Positions 40,475 to 63,032 of a DNA stretch of 64,000 nucleotides are shown here, piece after piece. The DNA is taken from the NCBI RefSeq assembly GCF_020923435.1, contig NZ_CP087263.1:434001-498000 (forward strand), written 5' to 3'. Position 1 is the stretch's first letter. Each line of letters begins with the position of its first letter. The DNA comes from Brevibacillus humidisoli. GTDB lineage: Bacteria; Bacillota; Bacilli; Brevibacillales; Brevibacillaceae. The notes beneath the pieces were generated by a model that worked only from the letters and a program-made list of their open reading frames with translations, searched no databases and was not told where the DNA came from. The translations under genes and the position numbers were made by a program.

Positions 40475-40942
40475 TCAGGACTGGCGGTTTCGCCGCTTCT
40501 TGGCTCTCGATTTTTGTTGGGGTTCCTGCTGTAGTTCCTGCTCCTGCTCCTGTCGCTTTTCCTTGATGATCATCCAGGCTAGCCGCATGTGACGCAGCAG
40601 TTCGGCTTGTTCTTCCTCAGAGAGCTCCAACTGCTCTTCCCCGAAATAGAGAACATGTCTTTCGCTGATAAAGGCTTGCAGGTCACCAGCAGCCGGATGA
40701 GACGGATTTGTCTCTTTGCCGCTCGACGGTTCTGGTTTGGACTGATCCGTCCGCCCGAGCAGATAATCGATGGAAGTGCCAAAAAAATCGGCCAGCTTTT
40801 GCAGTGTTTCGTAGTCGGCCTGGTTGTCATCTGTCTCGTATCGGGCATATGTTGAGCGATTGAGACCGATGCGGTTGGCCAAATCTTGCTGGGACAAGCC
40901 CAGTTGATGCCGCAAATGTTTCAGGCGTGTTCCAAACGTCAT
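40475..40942 (-). CDS. XRE family HTH regulator with Gln-rich, basic C-terminal tail
   Basis: About 155 residues. HTH_3 domain at the N-terminus: MTFGTRLKHLRHQLGLSQQD, then LANRIGLNRSTYARYETDDNQADYETLQKLADFFGTSIDYLLG. The remainder has an acidic segment (ISERHVLYFGEEQLELSEEEQ) and ends with a Gln-rich then Lys/Arg-rich tail (QEQEQELQQEPQQKSRAKKR). ATG 40942 follows GGGAGGTCATCGT. Divergent from a second XRE gene with shared operator-like repeats. Confidence 0.85.
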   Translation of the reverse strand: MTFGTRLKHLRHQLGLSQQDLANRIGLNRSTYARYETDDNQADYETLQKLADFFGTSIDYLLGRTDQSKPEPSSGKETNPSHPAAGDLQAFISERHVLYFGEEQLELSEEEQAELLRHMRLAWMIIKEKRQEQEQELQQEPQQKSRAKKRRNRQS

Positions 40943-40962: not shown

Positions 40963-41049
40963 ATTATAGGTGACAAAAAATCACATTGAAAGTTGTGTTC
41001 TCAAGTATCACATTGACGCTTGAAATGTGATGAAAGATCACTGTATACT
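40963..41049. promoter_or_regulatory. Divergent promoter/operator region of two XRE genes
   Basis: Rightward: TTGAAA (41020-41025), 18 bp, TATACT (41044-41049). Leftward: TATAAT on the minus strand (40963-40968). TCACATT occurs at 40981-40987 and 41008-41014, and AATGTGA at 41024-41030, the last two forming an inverted repeat with a 9-bp gap that overlaps the rightward -35. Likely binding sites for one or both XRE proteins. Confidence 0.6.
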
Positions 41050-41080: not shown

Positions 41081-41347
41081 ATGAGGAGATATCACTGGCT
41101 GGAGGCGCTGCGGTTGAAGGAAGGGATGACACAAGCAGAGGTTGCCAAACGATCGGGCATTGATCGCACATACTACACCAAGATTGAGCGGGGGAAGGTT
41201 CCGAGTGTTCGGGTAGCGATGCGGATCGCAAACGTACTCGGATTTGAATGGACTCTTTTTTTTGAATTGTCTTGTGATGTTTCTTCACAAAAAGAAAGAG
41301 ATAGGTCACAGTCGAGCACAGATGAGGGCAAGAAGGGGAGAACCTGA
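41081..41347 (+). CDS. Short XRE family HTH regulator
   Basis: 88 residues: an HTH domain, MRRYHWLEALRLKEGMTQAE and VAKRSGIDRTYYTKIERGKVPSVRVAMRIANVLGFEWTLFF, and a short polar tail. ATG 41081 follows GGGGGGAACGGA. Its TGA overlaps the ATG of the next gene by one base, so it is translationally coupled to the peptidase-like protein. The arrangement recalls XRE/ImmA-type pairs in which a regulator is coupled to a metalloprotease. Confidence 0.88.
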   Translation: MRRYHWLEALRLKEGMTQAEVAKRSGIDRTYYTKIERGKVPSVRVAMRIANVLGFEWTLFFELSCDVSSQKERDRSQSSTDEGKKGRT

Positions 41348-42633
41348 TGCAGGAGACCGCAAACAGGCAGATGAGTGAGGCAGAGAGCCTGGCTTGGGAA
41401 GGGTGTCATGCCTGGAGTAGCCTGTATGGAATGCTGGTGCAGCGGATGCGGATTCCGATTGAACAGAGAGAGCGGGTGGTGCAGCTTCCCATCGATCAGG
41501 CGGACTATCTGTTGCGTCATGGGAATCGTCTCGTCAGATCGACACTGGTAGAGAAGTGGGAGGAGATCTGGTCAAGAGAGGCAGAATGTTTTGCCTGCAT
41601 CCTGAATCAACTGAGTGGACTGCGTCTTGCCGTCTATCAGCAGCGGGGGTGGGACTTTGTGCTCAAAGAACCCCTGCAGCGCAATCGTCTTTCCATTCTC
41701 ACTCTGCAGGCGATGTGGGAAGCGATTGATCTCGGCAAAGAACGATTGATCCCTTTTCTGCAGCGCAAGGCGAAGCTGCTTGGCAAGGAGAAACTGGGCT
41801 GGCATGAAGTGAGGTGGCCGATCGGACGCATATTCCGGCTGGTCGATCCGATGGAAGCGTTTCTGCGTCTGGCGGATTGGGCGGAAGCGAACTGTCCGAT
41901 GCTGTCTCGGTTCGCTCGCAGTTTGGCTGCTCAGACCCAGCCAGCCGCCAGTCGAAGTGGTACGTTGGCAGAGGTTGCAGGTATGATGGGTCAGGCGTTC
42001 ATACAGGGTCTGGTCCGGGCAGCACCTTCTCCCGAGCGGAAACAGGGGATCCCGCCCCTATACAGCGGGGATCTGGCAGCAGCCTTCTTGGAGCAGTGGC
42101 TGGCCGATTACGCCATTGCGGCAGCTTCATCAGTGGAGGAGAAGCTGGCGATTATCGAGGAAAAGCTGCAGCGCGCCGTCTACTATCTGATGCAGATGCA
42201 CGCCCGCTTCCTGTTTGAACTGCGATTCTATGAACGGAGGAAGCGTGGGCCGGTGGCGGTCAACACGCTGAACCAACTGATGCTGGACGCCCAATCGTTT
42301 GCCTATGGCGAAGCGCTTGAGACGTATCATCCGTACGATTGGGCGTCTGACGAGCAGTTTTATCGGGTGGCAGAACCGTTCTGCCACTTTCAGCAGACGT
42401 TTGCGTATTTGCTGGGTAGCTGGATCTATCGTCTGACGTGGATAGAGGGGGCATTCATCGAGCAGTCGTACATCCGCTTTTTGCAAGCAGGAGGACGGGG
42501 ATCGACTGAGGAGCAGGCTGCCCGCTGTTTTTCGGTGGACCTACAGAGTTCCGATTTCTGGTGGCAAGCGATGCAATCGGTGCTGATAGAGGTAGACCTA
42601 TTTCTCCGGTATACGGAATCGTCATCCCATTAG
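41347..42633 (+). CDS. M3 oligoendopeptidase F-like protein with lost active site (pseudopeptidase)
   Basis: 428 residues. Large parts match the PepF/M3B catalytic region: NQLSGLRLAVYQQRGWDFVL, LQAMWEAIDLGKERLIPFLQRKAKLLGKEKLGWHEV, and the C-terminal MQMHARFLFELRFYERRKRG, YHPYDWASDEQFY and PFCHFQQTFAYLLGSWIYRL. Where the family has AHELGHAF this protein has AGMMGQAF (residues 211-218): both zinc-binding His and the catalytic Glu are gone, and the downstream third ligand Glu aligns with Asp. It also lacks the family's N-terminal ~150 residues. Coupled to an XRE gene, it is more likely a sensor or binding protein than a protease. Confidence 0.8.
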   Translation: MQETANRQMSEAESLAWEGCHAWSSLYGMLVQRMRIPIEQRERVVQLPIDQADYLLRHGNRLVRSTLVEKWEEIWSREAECFACILNQLSGLRLAVYQQRGWDFVLKEPLQRNRLSILTLQAMWEAIDLGKERLIPFLQRKAKLLGKEKLGWHEVRWPIGRIFRLVDPMEAFLRLADWAEANCPMLSRFARSLAAQTQPAASRSGTLAEVAGMMGQAFIQGLVRAAPSPERKQGIPPLYSGDLAAAFLEQWLADYAIAAASSVEEKLAIIEEKLQRAVYYLMQMHARFLFELRFYERRKRGPVAVNTLNQLMLDAQSFAYGEALETYHPYDWASDEQFYRVAEPFCHFQQTFAYLLGSWIYRLTWIEGAFIEQSYIRFLQAGGRGSTEEQAARCFSVDLQSSDFWWQAMQSVLIEVDLFLRYTESSSH

Positions 42634-43407
42634 CGAGTCGCTGCCAATATGACGAGTACGATCCCGCTCTTTTCTTCGCTTGATGAAATCTGACAGCGCA
42701 AATGGTATGTACAGCAGGAAAAAGAACAGAACGGCGATCACCTCCAGCGACAGGACATACCATGGATATGGGCCTAAAAAGTCAATCACGCTGGGATTGG
42801 CCGGTTTTCGTGCGACAAACATATAGTTGCCTCCGGTCAGGTAGTTGGCGACGGCAACGACCGGCAGGAGCAGATTGAGAAACGTCATCGCTTTCCATAT
42901 GGAGCGAATGGTCGGTCGATATCCCTCTACCACGGTGAGAAACAGGCAGGAGAGCAGAATACCCGCATGTGCCAGAAAAAAATGAAAAAACCGGAAGTGA
43001 GGAAACGGATAAAACAGCTCGGGGGTGAGGAGAGCTTGGCTCGCACCACCGATGCCGACAAAAAAGAGGATCTCGTACAGCAGCTTGTTTTTGTTGATCA
43101 GGACGACGACGGACAACAGCAGCGTGATGCTGCACAACTGAAGCGGCAAGGCATAGCTGGCGTCCCAGCCGATTGACAACACATACCATAGCTGCAGAGA
43201 GATCTCGGACAGCAGCAGAACGGCTGCCAGCACGCAGCGGGCAGAGGTGTTCCACTTTTCTTTTTGCAGCAGTTCTCTCTTATGGTACAGCATCCACAGC
43301 AGCAGAGCGATGAGAAGCAGAGCCGTCAAGTGTGACGGAGAAAACAGACGAAAGGGGTCTCCAGAGAACGTAGCGGAGAAAAACCAATCCATCGACATGG
43401 CCTCCAT
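42622..43407 (-). CDS. YwaF family (TIGR02206) integral membrane protein
   Basis: 261 residues with six or seven membrane segments. Family-like stretches are FSPSHLTALLLIALLLWM, SLQLWYVLSIGWDASYALPLQLCSI, LTPELFYPFPHFRFFHFFLAHAGILLSC and PYPWYVLSLEVIAVLFFFLLY. Function is unknown in the family. Internal starts at 43398 or 43392 are possible. Its end overlaps the convergent pseudopeptidase gene by 12 bp. Confidence 0.85.
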   Translation of the reverse strand: MEAMSMDWFFSATFSGDPFRLFSPSHLTALLLIALLLWMLYHKRELLQKEKWNTSARCVLAAVLLLSEISLQLWYVLSIGWDASYALPLQLCSITLLLSVVVLINKNKLLYEILFFVGIGGASQALLTPELFYPFPHFRFFHFFLAHAGILLSCLFLTVVEGYRPTIRSIWKAMTFLNLLLPVVAVANYLTGGNYMFVARKPANPSVIDFLGPYPWYVLSLEVIAVLFFFLLYIPFALSDFIKRRKERDRTRHIGSDSLMG

Positions 43408-57143: not shown

Positions 57144-57161
57144 CAAGAGGTGAAGATACGG

Positions 57162-60100
57162 ATGAAAAAGTGGCTGCGCCAAGCGTATACGATCTGCCTG
57201 TCACTGGTGATCGCCCTCTCCTCGGTGGCACCAGCGGGCGTTGTGTTTGGACAAACAGATGAAACAGCAGGTGTCCCGAATGCCCTGAGTACCACAGGTA
57301 TAGAGGAGACGGATGGCTTTATTGACCATACGGGACTGCTTGACGATACAGCTGATTGGGTTTTTGACGATTATCCTGAGGTCCTCGTGGACGACTCGGA
57401 CATCGAGTACCCGGATACGTCGGAGCAGCCGGTCCTGACAGAAGAGGACATTCTGGCGATGCAGTGGGATCAACTCACCGCCCACGCCGTAGTCAAAATC
57501 AACGAACTGTTTGAAAGACGAACGATCCAGATCGCATCGTTCTTTTACACCAATCTGCAGAAACTGCTCTCCATAGACGAGATCAACGAAACCTACGATT
57601 GGTCGGTAGAAGATGTGATGTGGGAGATAGAGGAACTGGACATCGATCAATACAACCACTTGATCAAATACGCACCGGTCGCGGGGTTTACCCATAAGAA
57701 GTGGAAGCGAAAAAAAGATAACGGCAACCCTGACCCGGGAAATCCTCCATCCGGCCCTCCTGGACAAGGTGAGGGAGGAGATGACGATGGAGGAGGCAAC
57801 TGCGGCAACGATAAAGACAACGGCAATGCCCAGGGCTGTGACAAAGGCAACAAAGGCGGTGGAGACAAGGGGAACGGTGGCAACAACGGAGGAAATAAAG
57901 GCGGCGACAAAGGAAACGGCAACGGCAACGGAAACGGCAAAGCGAAAAGTCTTACTGCTGTGGACGAGGTAGCGCAAAGCTCGTTTGACATCACGGAACA
58001 ATTGACCAATGTGCCACCAGAAGAACTGGTATATACCCCTAAGGACTTTACAAACACGCATTGGAAGAGCAACACGGACAATCCGGTAGATGAACTCTAC
58101 AGGGCAGCCAATCTGGTGGAGACCGATCTGGTGCTAAAGGGCAAGCAAGGCATGGATCTGGTGATTCAGCGACGGTATAACTCCCTGGACAGCTTGATTA
58201 CCCAACCCAGTTTGAAATACAAAAACAGGGAAGAAGCGATCAACGTAACGAAAAACGATGACGTCCCCGGGCCTTTCACCCTTGGAGCCGGCTGGTCGTT
58301 TAACTTCCCCATGTTTGAAGAGTCCAATCAACCGATTGAGGTTGAAAGCGAGGAAACGGACATCGGGATCAAATACAAGCTGAACAGAGATACCCAATAC
58401 GATCGCTGGATTCGGATCACACTTGATGACGGTTCTACGTTTGAAGGGGGGAACGATGATCTTTCTGGCCCGATCAGACTCCTGTCTCCGTACAGTGGTG
58501 TCTCTGCGCGACGGTATTTTGGCGGGGAAATTAGCGTGACTAGAGACGGGTACTACTACCATATGGAGCATGAATCGGACTACCTGGAAGTAAGAAAAGT
58601 AGACCCTTATGGCAATACGATCATCTATCGTATACCGGACGGAAACGAGGATATTCCGATTGAGATTATCGACAGTGTAGGACGTATCGTAATCATTGAG
58701 AAGAATGACAAGGACGTCATTACCGATCTCAAAGTATATGAGGATGCATCGCGTCAGAAGCTGCTCAAGCATATCCGATACCATGTCGAGCAAAAAGAAA
58801 TGTTGATCAATCCGGATAAATCGGAAGCAACAGATAAATTCTATCAGCTCAGCAGTGTAGAGGAAGTTCCTGTCAAACCAGAACAGGGTGAGAAAAGCAA
58901 AACGATTGCGAGTTATACGTACCTGGATCCATTTATGATGGGCAATGCCGAGTTTAATCTGACGCTAAATTATGAACTGCCTGCAGAAAACGGCAAGGTC
59001 CTGCTCGATTACCAGGGGATTGAATCGAAGGCCTATGTCGACGCGGATTTTAACAGGAGGAGTGTGATCCGCTACCTGCTGCTGGACAAGGCTAAATATC
59101 CGATACAGGGTCTTACACTGGGGTACCGGTACAGCCACTACTACCATGGGCCATATGGTCCCAATGATCCCAATACATCGGTTAAAAATCCTTTTGAACG
59201 CAACGTAGTCAGGTTGTATCTCGACAAACAGGCACTATCATACATCACGTATCACCCGGTTACGACTGTTCGCTACGAATATGAGGCGTTTAAACGCAAT
59301 CCCAATGATCCAGAGACAAGTCCGCTGGAGAAAAAGTGGTTTACCAAGGACTATACGATGACGAACAGCGAAGTCTGGAAGCGACCCAAGGAGGAAATCG
59401 AGCGGCTGCGGGGAGTGGACGAACGGCGCAGTGGGGATCGGGTTATCTCCAGGGAGCGGTACCCGTCCCTGATGTTCGGCCGTCCGGTAGAAAAGACGTT
59501 TGAGGTGAATAAAGAGGGGTTTCACCGGCTACGCTTGGTGAAATCGACCGGCTATCGGTTCAACCCACTGGACGACCGTGAAGATGGCAAAGAGTACAGC
59601 TACAATCCAGAAACATATCTAAGTTTTGCCTACGAAGATGATGACATCGATCCAACCTATCAGTATACGTTTCTGGCTCCGACTCCTGAAGTTGAACTGG
59701 CAGCCCAGGATGTGTTTGACTACCTGATGGACCCCGAGGTGGAGGATCGCGAGCAGGTGGAGGATCGCATTCACCTGTACGCCCATGAGACGAAGTACGA
59801 TTACAACCGATATGGGGACAAAATTTTTGAACAGGATCCGCTGGGGAATCAGACGACCTGGGATTACGTCGTGTTTGATGATGATTTTCGTCAGGTAGAG
59901 CACGTCGTCAAGGAGTCGGCAGATGGCACACTCGTACATGAAGAACAGTATGAGTACAACGAAGAAGGATATCTCACCGACGAAGTGATCGAGGATTCAT
60001 ACCCAGGCGGCCAGCATACAGATCGAATCGAACGGCGCTACTACTATGACGAAGATGATGAATTCGTCCTGACAAGCATGCGCGAGGAAATCTACGGTGC

Positions 60101-63032
60101 CGAAGAGAAAGAAGTGACGCGTCAGTTTGACTACGACCAGAACAACCTTCATATCACCGAAGTGACGATCGAAGATGTGGAGCTGGCAGAGGGAGAGACG
60201 GAGAATCTGCGATTGACGTACGAGTATGACGGACTGGATCGCCTGATCAAGCAGGGTTACCCGGACGGCAGTTACGTGCGCTATGAGTACGAACTGCTGG
60301 GTCGACCCAAAAAGGAAACGTTTGTCCCCAGATACGGTGAGGAGCGAGCGATCTGGTATCTGTACGACGATACGGTCACCAAACGGACAGTGGCAAAGGT
60401 GATGCCGGACTTCAAAATACTGGTGACGGTCTACACGCCATTTGGCGATGTGGAGTATCAGTTGGAGCAAGCCTTGACCAGAGGAACGTTTCAACGGCGA
60501 CCTATGTTGTACAACTTCTACTGGATTGATGGCCGTCAGCTGCGCAACAGCTACCCCTATGCACAAGAGGAGCGAAAGACCACCTATCTGTACAACGATG
60601 ACGGTTCGCTGGCATCCGCAACCAATGCATTGGGCCAAGAAACCACCTATTGGCGGGCTAATGCCGCGTTTGACGAGGGAACGGGCAGCTATCTGCCGAT
60701 GAGGGCAGAGAAGGTGGAGTACCCCAATGGTCTCGCAGTGGCTACCTACTACGATCGATACGGACGCGCGGAAAAAACCGTAGAGGAGACAGGGGACGGA
60801 AACAAGGAGCAAACGACGCATTACGACTACAACGACTTTGGCTTTGTCACCGACAAAGAGGTAGAGGGAGATACCGGTGAATCACGGGATTGGGAGTATC
60901 AGTACGATCTGCGCGGCAACCTGATCTACCTGGAGGACCCGGAGCACAACGAGTACCGGTACACCTACGATGCACTAGACAATCTCATCGACGTCTACCA
61001 AAATGACCAGCACACTACCCGTTATCGCTATAATGTGCTGTCGTGGAAGCTGGCAGAGGAAGATCTGCTCAACGACCGTGAAGAGAGCTATCGTTACACG
61101 GTCAACGGAAATGTCGACACCTACACCGATAAAGCGGGGCAAGAATACGAGTACGACTATACGCCCTACTATGAGGTAGAGGAATTGGAGATCTCCGATC
61201 GCTTTGGCGATGTAGTCTACACCAAGCAAAACGAGTACGATCCGAGCTCTCGTCTGTTGGTAGAGGAGTCAGACACCGGAGGCCATACGGTGCGCTACCG
61301 TTACGATCCCTTTCATCGTATGACTCAGTTCACCGCGCTGGGCCATACCTACCGGGTGAAGTATCAAAACGATCCGGATACGATCAACCCGTACAACCTG
61401 GACGACCTGGACGATCTGGTAGACGGTTTTGTCTATTCCGACGGTACGGAAGTGGAATACGAATACGATGAATTGGGTCGCTTGGAACGTCTCAACAGCC
61501 CGCTAACCGGACAGGTGAGCTACGACTATGACACCGATGAAGACGGGGAGACGGTTACGACCTCCTATCCGAACGGCATTTCCATGGAGGCCGAGCGCAA
61601 CTCGTTTGGAGAAACCTTGGAGACCACGCACAGCAACGGATGGGACGAGACCAACGTCTACGACGACTTTGGCAACATCGCCGCTGTCCTGCGAGATGGA
61701 CAGGTGTGGACGTATCAATACGACGAGATCGACCGCATCGTAGAGGAAGCCAATCCCGGCGAGCAAGTGAGGGAGTATCAATACGATGGACTGGGCAACC
61801 GGAAACGGCAGCTATCGGGTGAGTTCCCGATGCCGACCGAATCGTGGGAATACGAGTACGATGCACTCAACCGCCTGATAGAGGCAGAAGTAGACGATAC
61901 GGAAGCCAGATACACCTATTATCCCAACGGCCTGCGTGCGACCAAGACAGTGGAGGGAGAGACGACCCAGTACGTTTACTTTAAAGGACGTGTTGTGGAG
62001 GAATTGGATGCGTCAGGTCGAATCAAAGCACAGAACGTCTATGGGAATCAGTTGGTATTGCGGAAAGACGCTGCTGTGTCTGGCAAGTCTGGATTCTACC
62101 TGTACAACAGCCATGGCGACGTGATGAAGGTCGTGGACAAGAACACGGGTCGTACGCTTAACGAGTACCAGTACGATGCGTGGGGGAATCCGGTGGATGC
62201 GGGGCATCGGGAAGAGATGAGCAACCCGTTCCGCTACGCGGGTGAGGTCTACGATGAAGAGACGGGGATGTACTACCTGCGGGCGAGGTATTATGATCCG
62301 CGGATTGGGCGGTTTGTGACGGAGGATACGTATAAGGGGCAAGTGGATAATCCGCTGACGTTGAATCGGTATACGTATGTGCATAACAATCCGTTGAGGT
62401 ATGTTGATCCGAGTGGGCATCGCTTAGACGCAGCGCATGGAAATGGAGGGATAAATAAGGATCCAAGCGGAATTCTACGTACCGATAACGGGAAAGGGAA
62501 TGTTTATTGGGAATATTACGATTCTCTATATGAGTTAAATGGATCAGGAGCAGTTCCTGAAACAATTCGTCCTGAATATACAGGTAATGCAAAATACGAT
62601 GAAGAAACAGCAATGTATATTGAAATGGCCCTGTCGACTGGCGGAATTCTTGTCAATTCAGCGAAGCAAGGGGTCAAGCAAGCTATTAAGGGTACGGGTA
62701 AATTTGATAATGGATGGGACATGCCTAGAGGTGGTACAGAAATTGGTGGAAGAAGATATTCTGAACATGCTCTTGAAAGAATGGCACCAGATACCATCCA
62801 AGTTCGGGCAGAATTAGAGAAGAGAGCACTAGAAAAAGGATTGAAGCCTGGAACTAAGGAATTCAAGAACTTTGTAGACCCTAGAGGTATTCCTCCAATG
62901 GTCGTAGAAGACACGATCAAAAATGTTAAGCCAGTTCCAGGTAACAGACCAAATACATTGAAATATGATGGGAAGGATGTTACCGTCATTACAAACACCA
63001 ATGGTGATGTAATCACTGTAATTCCAAAATAA
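57162..63032 (+). CDS. WapA-like RHS/YD-repeat polymorphic toxin
   Basis: 1956 residues, ATG 57162 behind AAGAGGTGAAGATACGG. Signal peptide (LRQAYTICLSLVIALSSVAP), an acidic stretch, then a Gly/Asn/Asp/Lys low-complexity spacer at about 185-264, an N-terminal RHS-entry module (ETDLVLKGKQGMDLVIQRRYNSL) and many YD repeats such as YEYDGLDRLIKQGYPDGS and YRYDPFHRMTQF. The RHS core ends in YLRARYYDPRIGRFVTEDTY... YVDPSGHR near 1750. The last ~200 residues are unrelated, AT-rich in codons, and contain YSEHALERM and DVTVITNTNGDVITVIPK, resembling BECR-fold RNase tips. Predicted to be a secreted contact-type antibacterial toxin. Confidence 0.88.
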   Translation: MKKWLRQAYTICLSLVIALSSVAPAGVVFGQTDETAGVPNALSTTGIEETDGFIDHTGLLDDTADWVFDDYPEVLVDDSDIEYPDTSEQPVLTEEDILAMQWDQLTAHAVVKINELFERRTIQIASFFYTNLQKLLSIDEINETYDWSVEDVMWEIEELDIDQYNHLIKYAPVAGFTHKKWKRKKDNGNPDPGNPPSGPPGQGEGGDDDGGGNCGNDKDNGNAQGCDKGNKGGGDKGNGGNNGGNKGGDKGNGNGNGNGKAKSLTAVDEVAQSSFDITEQLTNVPPEELVYTPKDFTNTHWKSNTDNPVDELYRAANLVETDLVLKGKQGMDLVIQRRYNSLDSLITQPSLKYKNREEAINVTKNDDVPGPFTLGAGWSFNFPMFEESNQPIEVESEETDIGIKYKLNRDTQYDRWIRITLDDGSTFEGGNDDLSGPIRLLSPYSGVSARRYFGGEISVTRDGYYYHMEHESDYLEVRKVDPYGNTIIYRIPDGNEDIPIEIIDSVGRIVIIEKNDKDVITDLKVYEDASRQKLLKHIRYHVEQKEMLINPDKSEATDKFYQLSSVEEVPVKPEQGEKSKTIASYTYLDPFMMGNAEFNLTLNYELPAENGKVLLDYQGIESKAYVDADFNRRSVIRYLLLDKAKYPIQGLTLGYRYSHYYHGPYGPNDPNTSVKNPFERNVVRLYLDKQALSYITYHPVTTVRYEYEAFKRNPNDPETSPLEKKWFTKDYTMTNSEVWKRPKEEIERLRGVDERRSGDRVISRERYPSLMFGRPVEKTFEVNKEGFHRLRLVKSTGYRFNPLDDREDGKEYSYNPETYLSFAYEDDDIDPTYQYTFLAPTPEVELAAQDVFDYLMDPEVEDREQVEDRIHLYAHETKYDYNRYGDKIFEQDPLGNQTTWDYVVFDDDFRQVEHVVKESADGTLVHEEQYEYNEEGYLTDEVIEDSYPGGQHTDRIERRYYYDEDDEFVLTSMREEIYGAEEKEVTRQFDYDQNNLHITEVTIEDVELAEGETENLRLTYEYDGLDRLIKQGYPDGSYVRYEYELLGRPKKETFVPRYGEERAIWYLYDDTVTKRTVAKVMPDFKILVTVYTPFGDVEYQLEQALTRGTFQRRPMLYNFYWIDGRQLRNSYPYAQEERKTTYLYNDDGSLASATNALGQETTYWRANAAFDEGTGSYLPMRAEKVEYPNGLAVATYYDRYGRAEKTVEETGDGNKEQTTHYDYNDFGFVTDKEVEGDTGESRDWEYQYDLRGNLIYLEDPEHNEYRYTYDALDNLIDVYQNDQHTTRYRYNVLSWKLAEEDLLNDREESYRYTVNGNVDTYTDKAGQEYEYDYTPYYEVEELEISDRFGDVVYTKQNEYDPSSRLLVEESDTGGHTVRYRYDPFHRMTQFTALGHTYRVKYQNDPDTINPYNLDDLDDLVDGFVYSDGTEVEYEYDELGRLERLNSPLTGQVSYDYDTDEDGETVTTSYPNGISMEAERNSFGETLETTHSNGWDETNVYDDFGNIAAVLRDGQVWTYQYDEIDRIVEEANPGEQVREYQYDGLGNRKRQLSGEFPMPTESWEYEYDALNRLIEAEVDDTEARYTYYPNGLRATKTVEGETTQYVYFKGRVVEELDASGRIKAQNVYGNQLVLRKDAAVSGKSGFYLYNSHGDVMKVVDKNTGRTLNEYQYDAWGNPVDAGHREEMSNPFRYAGEVYDEETGMYYLRARYYDPRIGRFVTEDTYKGQVDNPLTLNRYTYVHNNPLRYVDPSGHRLDAAHGNGGINKDPSGILRTDNGKGNVYWEYYDSLYELNGSGAVPETIRPEYTGNAKYDEETAMYIEMALSTGGILVNSAKQGVKQAIKGTGKFDNGWDMPRGGTEIGGRRYSEHALERMAPDTIQVRAELEKRALEKGLKPGTKEFKNFVDPRGIPPMVVEDTIKNVKPVPGNRPNTLKYDGKDVTVITNTNGDVITVIPK

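Follow-up and report, generated by a model that had tools for sequence, protein, structure and literature searches.

The usual explanation for pairs of an XRE-family regulator with a metallopeptidase is that the repressor is proteolysed. The ImmR-ImmA and CI-MpaR systems, like the locus of Brevibacillus humidisoli described here, combine an XRE regulator and a protein of metallopeptidase fold in a switch with divergent promoters, and the accessible part of the source on these systems reports that antirepressors of such switches can be proteases or can act by binding without cleavage (PMC6872733). The present locus differs from them in that its metallopeptidase-like protein has an M3B fold without catalytic residues and is encoded behind a small Cro-like XRE gene, not behind the CI-like one. 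A preliminary description of the locus had invoked the XRE-ImmA/IrrE switches; as a statement of membership this has to be withdrawn, because the partner has no M78 (DUF955) domain and is M3B-like without HExxH. Phage CI/Cro switches with an antirepressor gene (Rha/ORF6C, next after the small XRE in L204, a wider relative) have the same divergent XRE genes, spaced operator-like sites and accessory gene after the small XRE, whereas here the accessory gene is a dead peptidase and none of the four neighbouring genes that were tested is a phage gene (they encode Fe-ADH, PdxA, 2-hydroxyacid dehydrogenase and a TMEM164-family protein). A phage-remnant locus of Listeria, as far as it is described in the accessible part of PMC8235301, contains two XRE genes, a metzincin and a TIMP-like protein; set beside ours by description only, it is similar in its two XREs and metalloprotease gene, but its protease is secreted and belongs to another family. 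M3 peptidases act on peptide-controlled circuits in the PepF-ComRS and PepF-Phr systems, where, in the accessible parts of the two reports, the enzyme is active (PMC9173638, PMC7055314), and pepF of Streptococcus salivarius is located behind coiA and not with the regulator (PMC9173638). Metallo-pseudopeptidases likewise have lost zinc ligands and probably have binding roles, and no M3 member is named in the abstract of the review on them, in its section 4 or among the results of a term search of it (PMC11266112). Neither an M3 pseudopeptidase nor an XRE-M3 pair is described in the titles and abstract beginnings of the open-licence literature, among the matches listed. What is new here is that such a pair sits in a phage-like switch and that the third gene of the switch varies between relatives.

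The window, a stretch of 64,000 nucleotides, corresponds to positions 434001-498000 of a 4.9-Mb single-contig genome (G000) and was compared with two other species of the same genus (G001 and G002, making three genomes of the genus) and with more distant relatives. The small XRE gene in the Cro-like position (41081..41347, plus strand) encodes 88 amino acids (HTH_3, E 7.6e-16), and the pseudo-M3 (PepF-like) gene (41347..42633, plus strand) encodes 428 (TIGR02290, E 7.1e-67); as the preliminary description had it, the two orfs share one base (TGA/ATG at 41347), which suggests translational coupling. The small XRE matches only HTH families of Pfam and has no ligand-binding domain; its sequence identity is 69% to that of G001, 61% to that of G002 and 51% to that of G030, a genome of genus g3. 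The pair of XRE and dead M3 is kept in G000 and G002 (loci L008/L081), and G030 (locus L085) pairs its XRE with an intact M3 enzyme that has HELGH. Convergent with the pseudo-M3 gene is a gene for a TMEM164-family membrane protein (42622-43407, minus strand; Pfam PF14808, E 6e-58), and a TMEM164-like orf was seen by eye at the matching position in G002. Elsewhere in the window, in a region unlinked to this finding, a secreted-looking protein of 1960 amino acids (57150-63032, plus strand) appears by eye to contain many YD/RHS-type repeats.

Upstream of the pair and divergent from it is a CI-like XRE regulator of 155 amino acids (40475..40942, minus strand; HTH_3, E 5.3e-16). Its orf is open to 40960, and the ATG at 40942 was chosen as the start from aligned relatives and the ribosome-binding site. 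Both XREs score above the HTH_3 cut-off (58.3 and 58.8 bits versus 23), and the divergent one matches the phrog_8, phrog_4 and phrog_3 regulators and repressors. A tblastn search found 264 phage records matching its HTH part, several of them annotated as CI-like repressor and none covering 80% of the protein. Orthologues of the divergent XRE are present in G001, G002, G030, G037 and G038, and both XREs together with the intervening DNA are common to these genomes and G000, which represent four genera.

The intervening DNA contains candidate promoters in both directions. The divergent gene has a -10-like hexamer TATAAT (40963..40968, minus strand), identified by eye and not called by the promoter scan, that is invariant in the six-genome alignment; the XRE/pseudo-M3 pair has a sigma-70-like promoter, TTGAAA-18-TATACT (41020..41049, plus strand; promoter scan 10/12). 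Operator-like sites of the form GTGA-N7-TCAC are spaced across them. Site O1, GTGACAAAAAATCAC (40970..40984), is exact in all six genomes; O2 (40997..41011) is degenerate, with two mismatches, and is found at the same offset with two mismatches or fewer in all six and exact in none; O3, GTGATGAAAGATCAC (41027..41041), is exact and lies between the -35 and -10 elements of the plus-strand promoter, a position at which five of the six genomes have a site with at most two mismatches, the third site of G030 being further along. Another exact site, GTGATGTTTCTTCAC (41274..41288), is located in the 3′ end of the small XRE gene and precedes the start codon of the pseudo-M3 gene by 58 bases; an exact site of this type occupies the matching place in G002 (L081:9535-9549), and a search for exact matches found none at that place in G001, G030, G037 or G038. 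The three exact sites of the locus are the only ones in the 64-kb window, and three exact sites never occurred together when the 460-base region was randomized 20,000 times (first order). The motif itself is not special to this locus, since the window has 19 sites when one mismatch is allowed, fewer than the 27.7 expected, and the whole genome of G000 has 69 exact sites versus 43 for a reversed control pattern; the latter excess may represent a wider set of sites for the same or another regulator. Taken alone, G001 and G002 have one site each with no more than one mismatch, a count that 6% of shuffles reach, so that in these two genomes it is the constant position of the sites that carries the argument. 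The locus thus has one hallmark of a CI/Cro-type switch, divergent XRE genes with shared, spaced operator-like sites over both promoters (the minus-strand promoter as seen by eye). The partnership with an XRE proposed in the preliminary description is real, but that account had mentioned neither the second, CI-like XRE nor the operator-like sites, on the basis of which the pair appears to belong to a lysogeny-type switch.

The gene behind the small XRE occupies a third slot, the content of which differs among relatives. In G000 and G002 it is the dead M3 gene. In G030 it is an intact M3 gene of 599 amino acids with HELGH and ETAS (L085:8209-10008), beginning 15 bases past the XRE gene, so that the module (L085:7401-10008) consists of a two-XRE switch followed by a live M3 enzyme, the branch of which is long (0.99) in the enzyme tree. 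In G001, which has kept both XRE genes and site O1 intact, a short stretch right after the XRE stop codon (L184:1764-1820) resembles the start of the dead gene with its start codon changed, and no match to an M3 protein better than E 0.6 was found within 18 kb; the stretch is likely but not proven to be a pseudo-M3 remnant, because its similarity is weak beyond about 13 bases past the XRE stop codon and a local alignment of that part finds nothing. The retention of the XRE pair without M3 in G001 indicates that the switch does not strictly need M3. In G037 and G038 the slot contains a small protein. Small proteins follow the small XRE in three genera (L185:1652-2065, L186:1562-1975 and L187:1071-1295) and have in common a motif like PVKVDLxxGADGLELxEI; the one of the three that was tested, that of L187, matched no Pfam family. 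A divergent XRE is present in 32 of the 34 loci of small-XRE relatives that were read among the matches listed (29 of 31 and 3 of 3), and an M3 gene is downstream in three (L181, L182 and L183), which belong to the same three genomes as the XRE-M3 pairs. In L213, an M78 peptidase gene lies behind the divergent XRE gene. The preliminary description had asked whether the XRE gene is always adjacent and HExxH always missing, and neither holds throughout: the partner in G030 is intact, and G001 keeps its XRE without an M3 gene. The simplest reading is that the M3 gene entered the switch alive and died in the genus of the window. Independent captures of M3 genes are a possible alternative, since the tree cannot prove the G030 enzyme to be the nearest live sister and since G037 and G038 have divergent XREs closer to that of the window (55-56% identity) than the one of G030 (42%). 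The third-slot position makes the XREs putative partners of the pseudo-M3 protein, and we consider it nearly an even chance that this protein is a non-catalytic partner or antirepressor within a domesticated switch of lysogeny type.

The M3B ancestry of the protein and the loss of its active site, both proposed in the preliminary description, stood up to profile searches and alignment. TIGR02290, the NCBIfam model M3_fam_3 of the M3B oligoendopeptidase F group, matches it with 226.7 bits, well under the curated cut-off of 561.7, and matches all 26 rows of an alignment (A4) of the two zinc-less copies and 24 intact enzymes. Pfam reported no family for it up to a limit of E 10, and does report M3 for the intact relative in G030. 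Among the matches listed, full-length M3 enzymes are 31-40% identical to it, and a profile of the pseudo-M3 family matches the M3B/PepF-like proteins of PDB entries 2qr4 and 3ce2. The helical scaffold is common to the group, with homology from about residue 157 of relatives of about 596 amino acids to their C terminus, but the N-terminal domain of about 157 residues (previously estimated as about 150), the segment ahead of the zinc helix and the zinc ligands are missing. The former zinc site reads AGMMGQAF (residues 211-218; 41977..42000, plus strand) in place of AHELGHAY (AHELGHAF in the preliminary description), with both His and the Glu lost, and HExxH is absent throughout the 428-residue sequence. 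In the copy of G002 (A-AEIGQ-AF) both zinc His residues are gone and the HExxH Glu is kept, so loss of this Glu is not common to both species. The third zinc ligand, the Glu of ETAS, is Asp in the window and Gly in G002, and both copies have also lost a conserved His before FY and the two tyrosines of FYNFPY. Alignments A1 and A4 place an approximate junction at 41917..41952 (plus strand), where about 28 residues ahead of the zinc helix are missing. Of 147 columns that are at least 95% conserved among the 24 intact enzymes, 15 lie in the absent N-terminal part. The N-terminal helices that remain contain 43, of which both dead copies keep 25; the figures are 29 of 71 for the C-terminal part and 1 of 18 for the segment ahead of the zinc helix. 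The flanking motifs quoted as intact in the preliminary description both fall within the conserved part of the protein. A structure predicted from three rows (window, L068 and L197) was poor, with a mean pLDDT of 47.3. Judged by its residues, the protein is predicted to have no peptidase activity.

The preliminary description had also suggested that the dead fold binds a peptide. If so, the protein might sense an intracellular peptide that its ancestor cut, and signal to the XRE; the slot of G030 does contain an intact M3 enzyme. In S. salivarius, the ComR ligand XIP is cut by PepF, according to the accessible part of PMC9173638, and PhrA is degraded by PepF when the latter is overexpressed, but deletion of pepF has little effect on the PhrA response in what is accessible of PMC7055314. 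The segment missing ahead of the zinc helix we take, from M3 structures, to hold the substrate-binding edge strand, and the lost Tyr and His residues we take to be catalytic. With these, a Tyr/His loop among them, and the N-terminal residues gone, the known mode of peptide binding has probably been lost, which makes enzyme-like binding unlikely, and the small XRE of 88 residues is an HTH without any ligand-binding domain. Peptide sensing is thus an unlikely explanation and a weaker rival than a binding role at the XREs.

The pseudo-M3 gene is rare: copies are known in two species. In the family sample of 39 genomes, which is also the order sample, the zinc-less form is found only in G000 and G002, and 34 genomes encode a full-length M3 orthologue with HELGH; no M3 orthologue was found at the thresholds used in G001, G034 or G038, and all three genomes of the genus proved to lack a full-length one in the searches made. 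HELGH is present in all 46 distinct full-length orthologues, a 47th row (L183, a cut copy of the G030 gene) having been left out, and in two of two more, 48 in total. Among 398 genomes of the class, drawn evenly from a larger group with up to four candidates scored per genome, only G000 and G002 match a profile of the two sequences beyond 1e-100; next in rank comes a match in G355 (1.2e-97), to an enzyme that is full-length and has HELGH. Genome contigs yielded no further zinc-less copies when searched with P0001 and the G002 record alone when searched with alignment A2, which matched no viral contig. Viral searches with A4 and with the L197 protein found one distant enzyme with HELGH, on the same contig both times, and phage and plasmid searches found 4 and 9 records, respectively, in which the identity of the M3-like matches did not exceed 41%. 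In the M3 tree, the stem of the dead copies has 2.86 changes per column and placement was not achieved; the test of a clade uniting these copies with the G030 enzyme (p-AU 0.358, without the long-branched row L075) neither demonstrates nor rejects it. An XRE gene lies within 600 bases upstream of only one of the 46 full-length orthologues, that of G030 (the upstream view was 378 bases for three and 555 for one), and of neither of the two additional orthologues. Another 60 upstream regions, up to 2.2 kb long and some from the same genomes, contained no adjacent XRE gene; one of them (L167) had an XRE-like orf about 680 bases away.

If the gene had been captured with the switch, were of little use and were now being lost, the two copies would be survivors of a slow decay. 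The absence of M3 from G001 with its likely remnant, the concentration of losses in the active site and the restriction of the zinc-less form to two of 398 genomes of the class would fit, as would the rate of change between G000 and G002, with dN 0.42 compared with 0.06-0.13 (dS 1.46-1.91) for three flanking genes. Against decay, G002 has a zinc-less copy, 50% identical, in the same genomic place. Decaying genes would not be expected to keep their scaffold residues in both species, as these do. Over 419 codons (NG86), dN/dS is 0.42/1.54, about 0.28, compared with 0.29/0.87, or 0.34, for the small XRE and 0.21/1.20 for the divergent XRE, ratios that are only rough because dS is probably near saturation. 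All gaps between the pseudo-M3 copies are in frame (1, 1 and 8 codons), and there is no stop codon, whereas random placement of the substitutions in 2000 runs gave a mean of 12.7 and a minimum of 3. The dN/dS value and the missing stop codons together indicate that the intact frame is not due to chance. From these comparisons, the gene is evidently under purifying selection, with a dN/dS similar to that of the adjacent XRE gene, and is not simply decaying, as the preliminary description had maintained; its fast evolution relative to the flanking genes indicates that the constraint is moderate. Slow decay is accordingly also unlikely.

Pseudopeptidases often regulate their active cousins, as stated in the accessible part of PMC11266112, and five other M3-family genes of the genome exceed the Pfam cut-off, one of them barely. 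The dead protein might therefore pair with or inhibit active M3 paralogues, the XRE controlling its expression only. The relationship to these paralogues is remote, the best M3 match having E 0.006 and 23% identity, and the orthologous full-length enzyme is missing from the three genomes of the genus, as described above, which makes this role quite improbable.

We return to a binding role at the XREs, which is our best guess because catalysis and the usual substrate site are gone while the scaffold is under selection. The locus would be a domesticated, phage-like switch of lysogeny type, the anatomy of which suggests that the CI-like divergent XRE and the small Cro-like XRE compete for shared operators that overlap both promoters. 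Behind the small XRE, the third position of the operon would be a slot for a phage antirepressor in one relative and for accessory proteins in others, and in this module family it would have taken up an M3 oligoendopeptidase. In the genus of the window, the enzyme would then have kept much of its helical scaffold while the N-terminal domain, the substrate segment and the zinc site disappeared. It would now most likely act by protein-protein contact, binding one XRE and changing operator occupancy as a binding antirepressor or co-regulator; the contact, the direction of regulation and the regulon are what we infer.

Alternatively, the protein might be no more than a switch-regulated cargo with a cell function unrelated to XREs or peptidases, such as that of a scaffold or chaperone. 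The operator-like site that shortly precedes the pseudo-M3 gene in the two species is what one would expect of a regulated target, but a one-base overlap and an XRE-like dN/dS are more usual for partners, and the fact that G030 has an intact peptidase at this position also argues against a mere cargo, which is very doubtful. A toxin-antitoxin pair was rejected, as the M3-like protein matches no toxin-like family in Pfam, NCBIfam or PADLOC; the small XRE has weak, below-cut-off matches to antitoxin models of NCBIfam. RRNPP regulators consist of an HTH plus a TPR peptide-binding domain, and the XRE, with 88 residues and only HTH families reported, is not one of them.

Tentatively, a CI/Cro switch derived from a phage may have taken up a live bacterial oligopeptidase that, after losing catalysis, became a non-enzymatic antirepressor or co-regulator, in which case live (G030), dead (G000 and G002) and lost (G001) stages of the process can be read from present genomes. 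A dead M3B protein kept under selection in such a switch would be evidence that this fold is able to function as a binding module. Because close relatives have the live, the dead and the lost form, the change from enzyme to regulator can be tested directly. The locus would also offer a small model for the domestication of a lysogeny switch where no prophage is evident.
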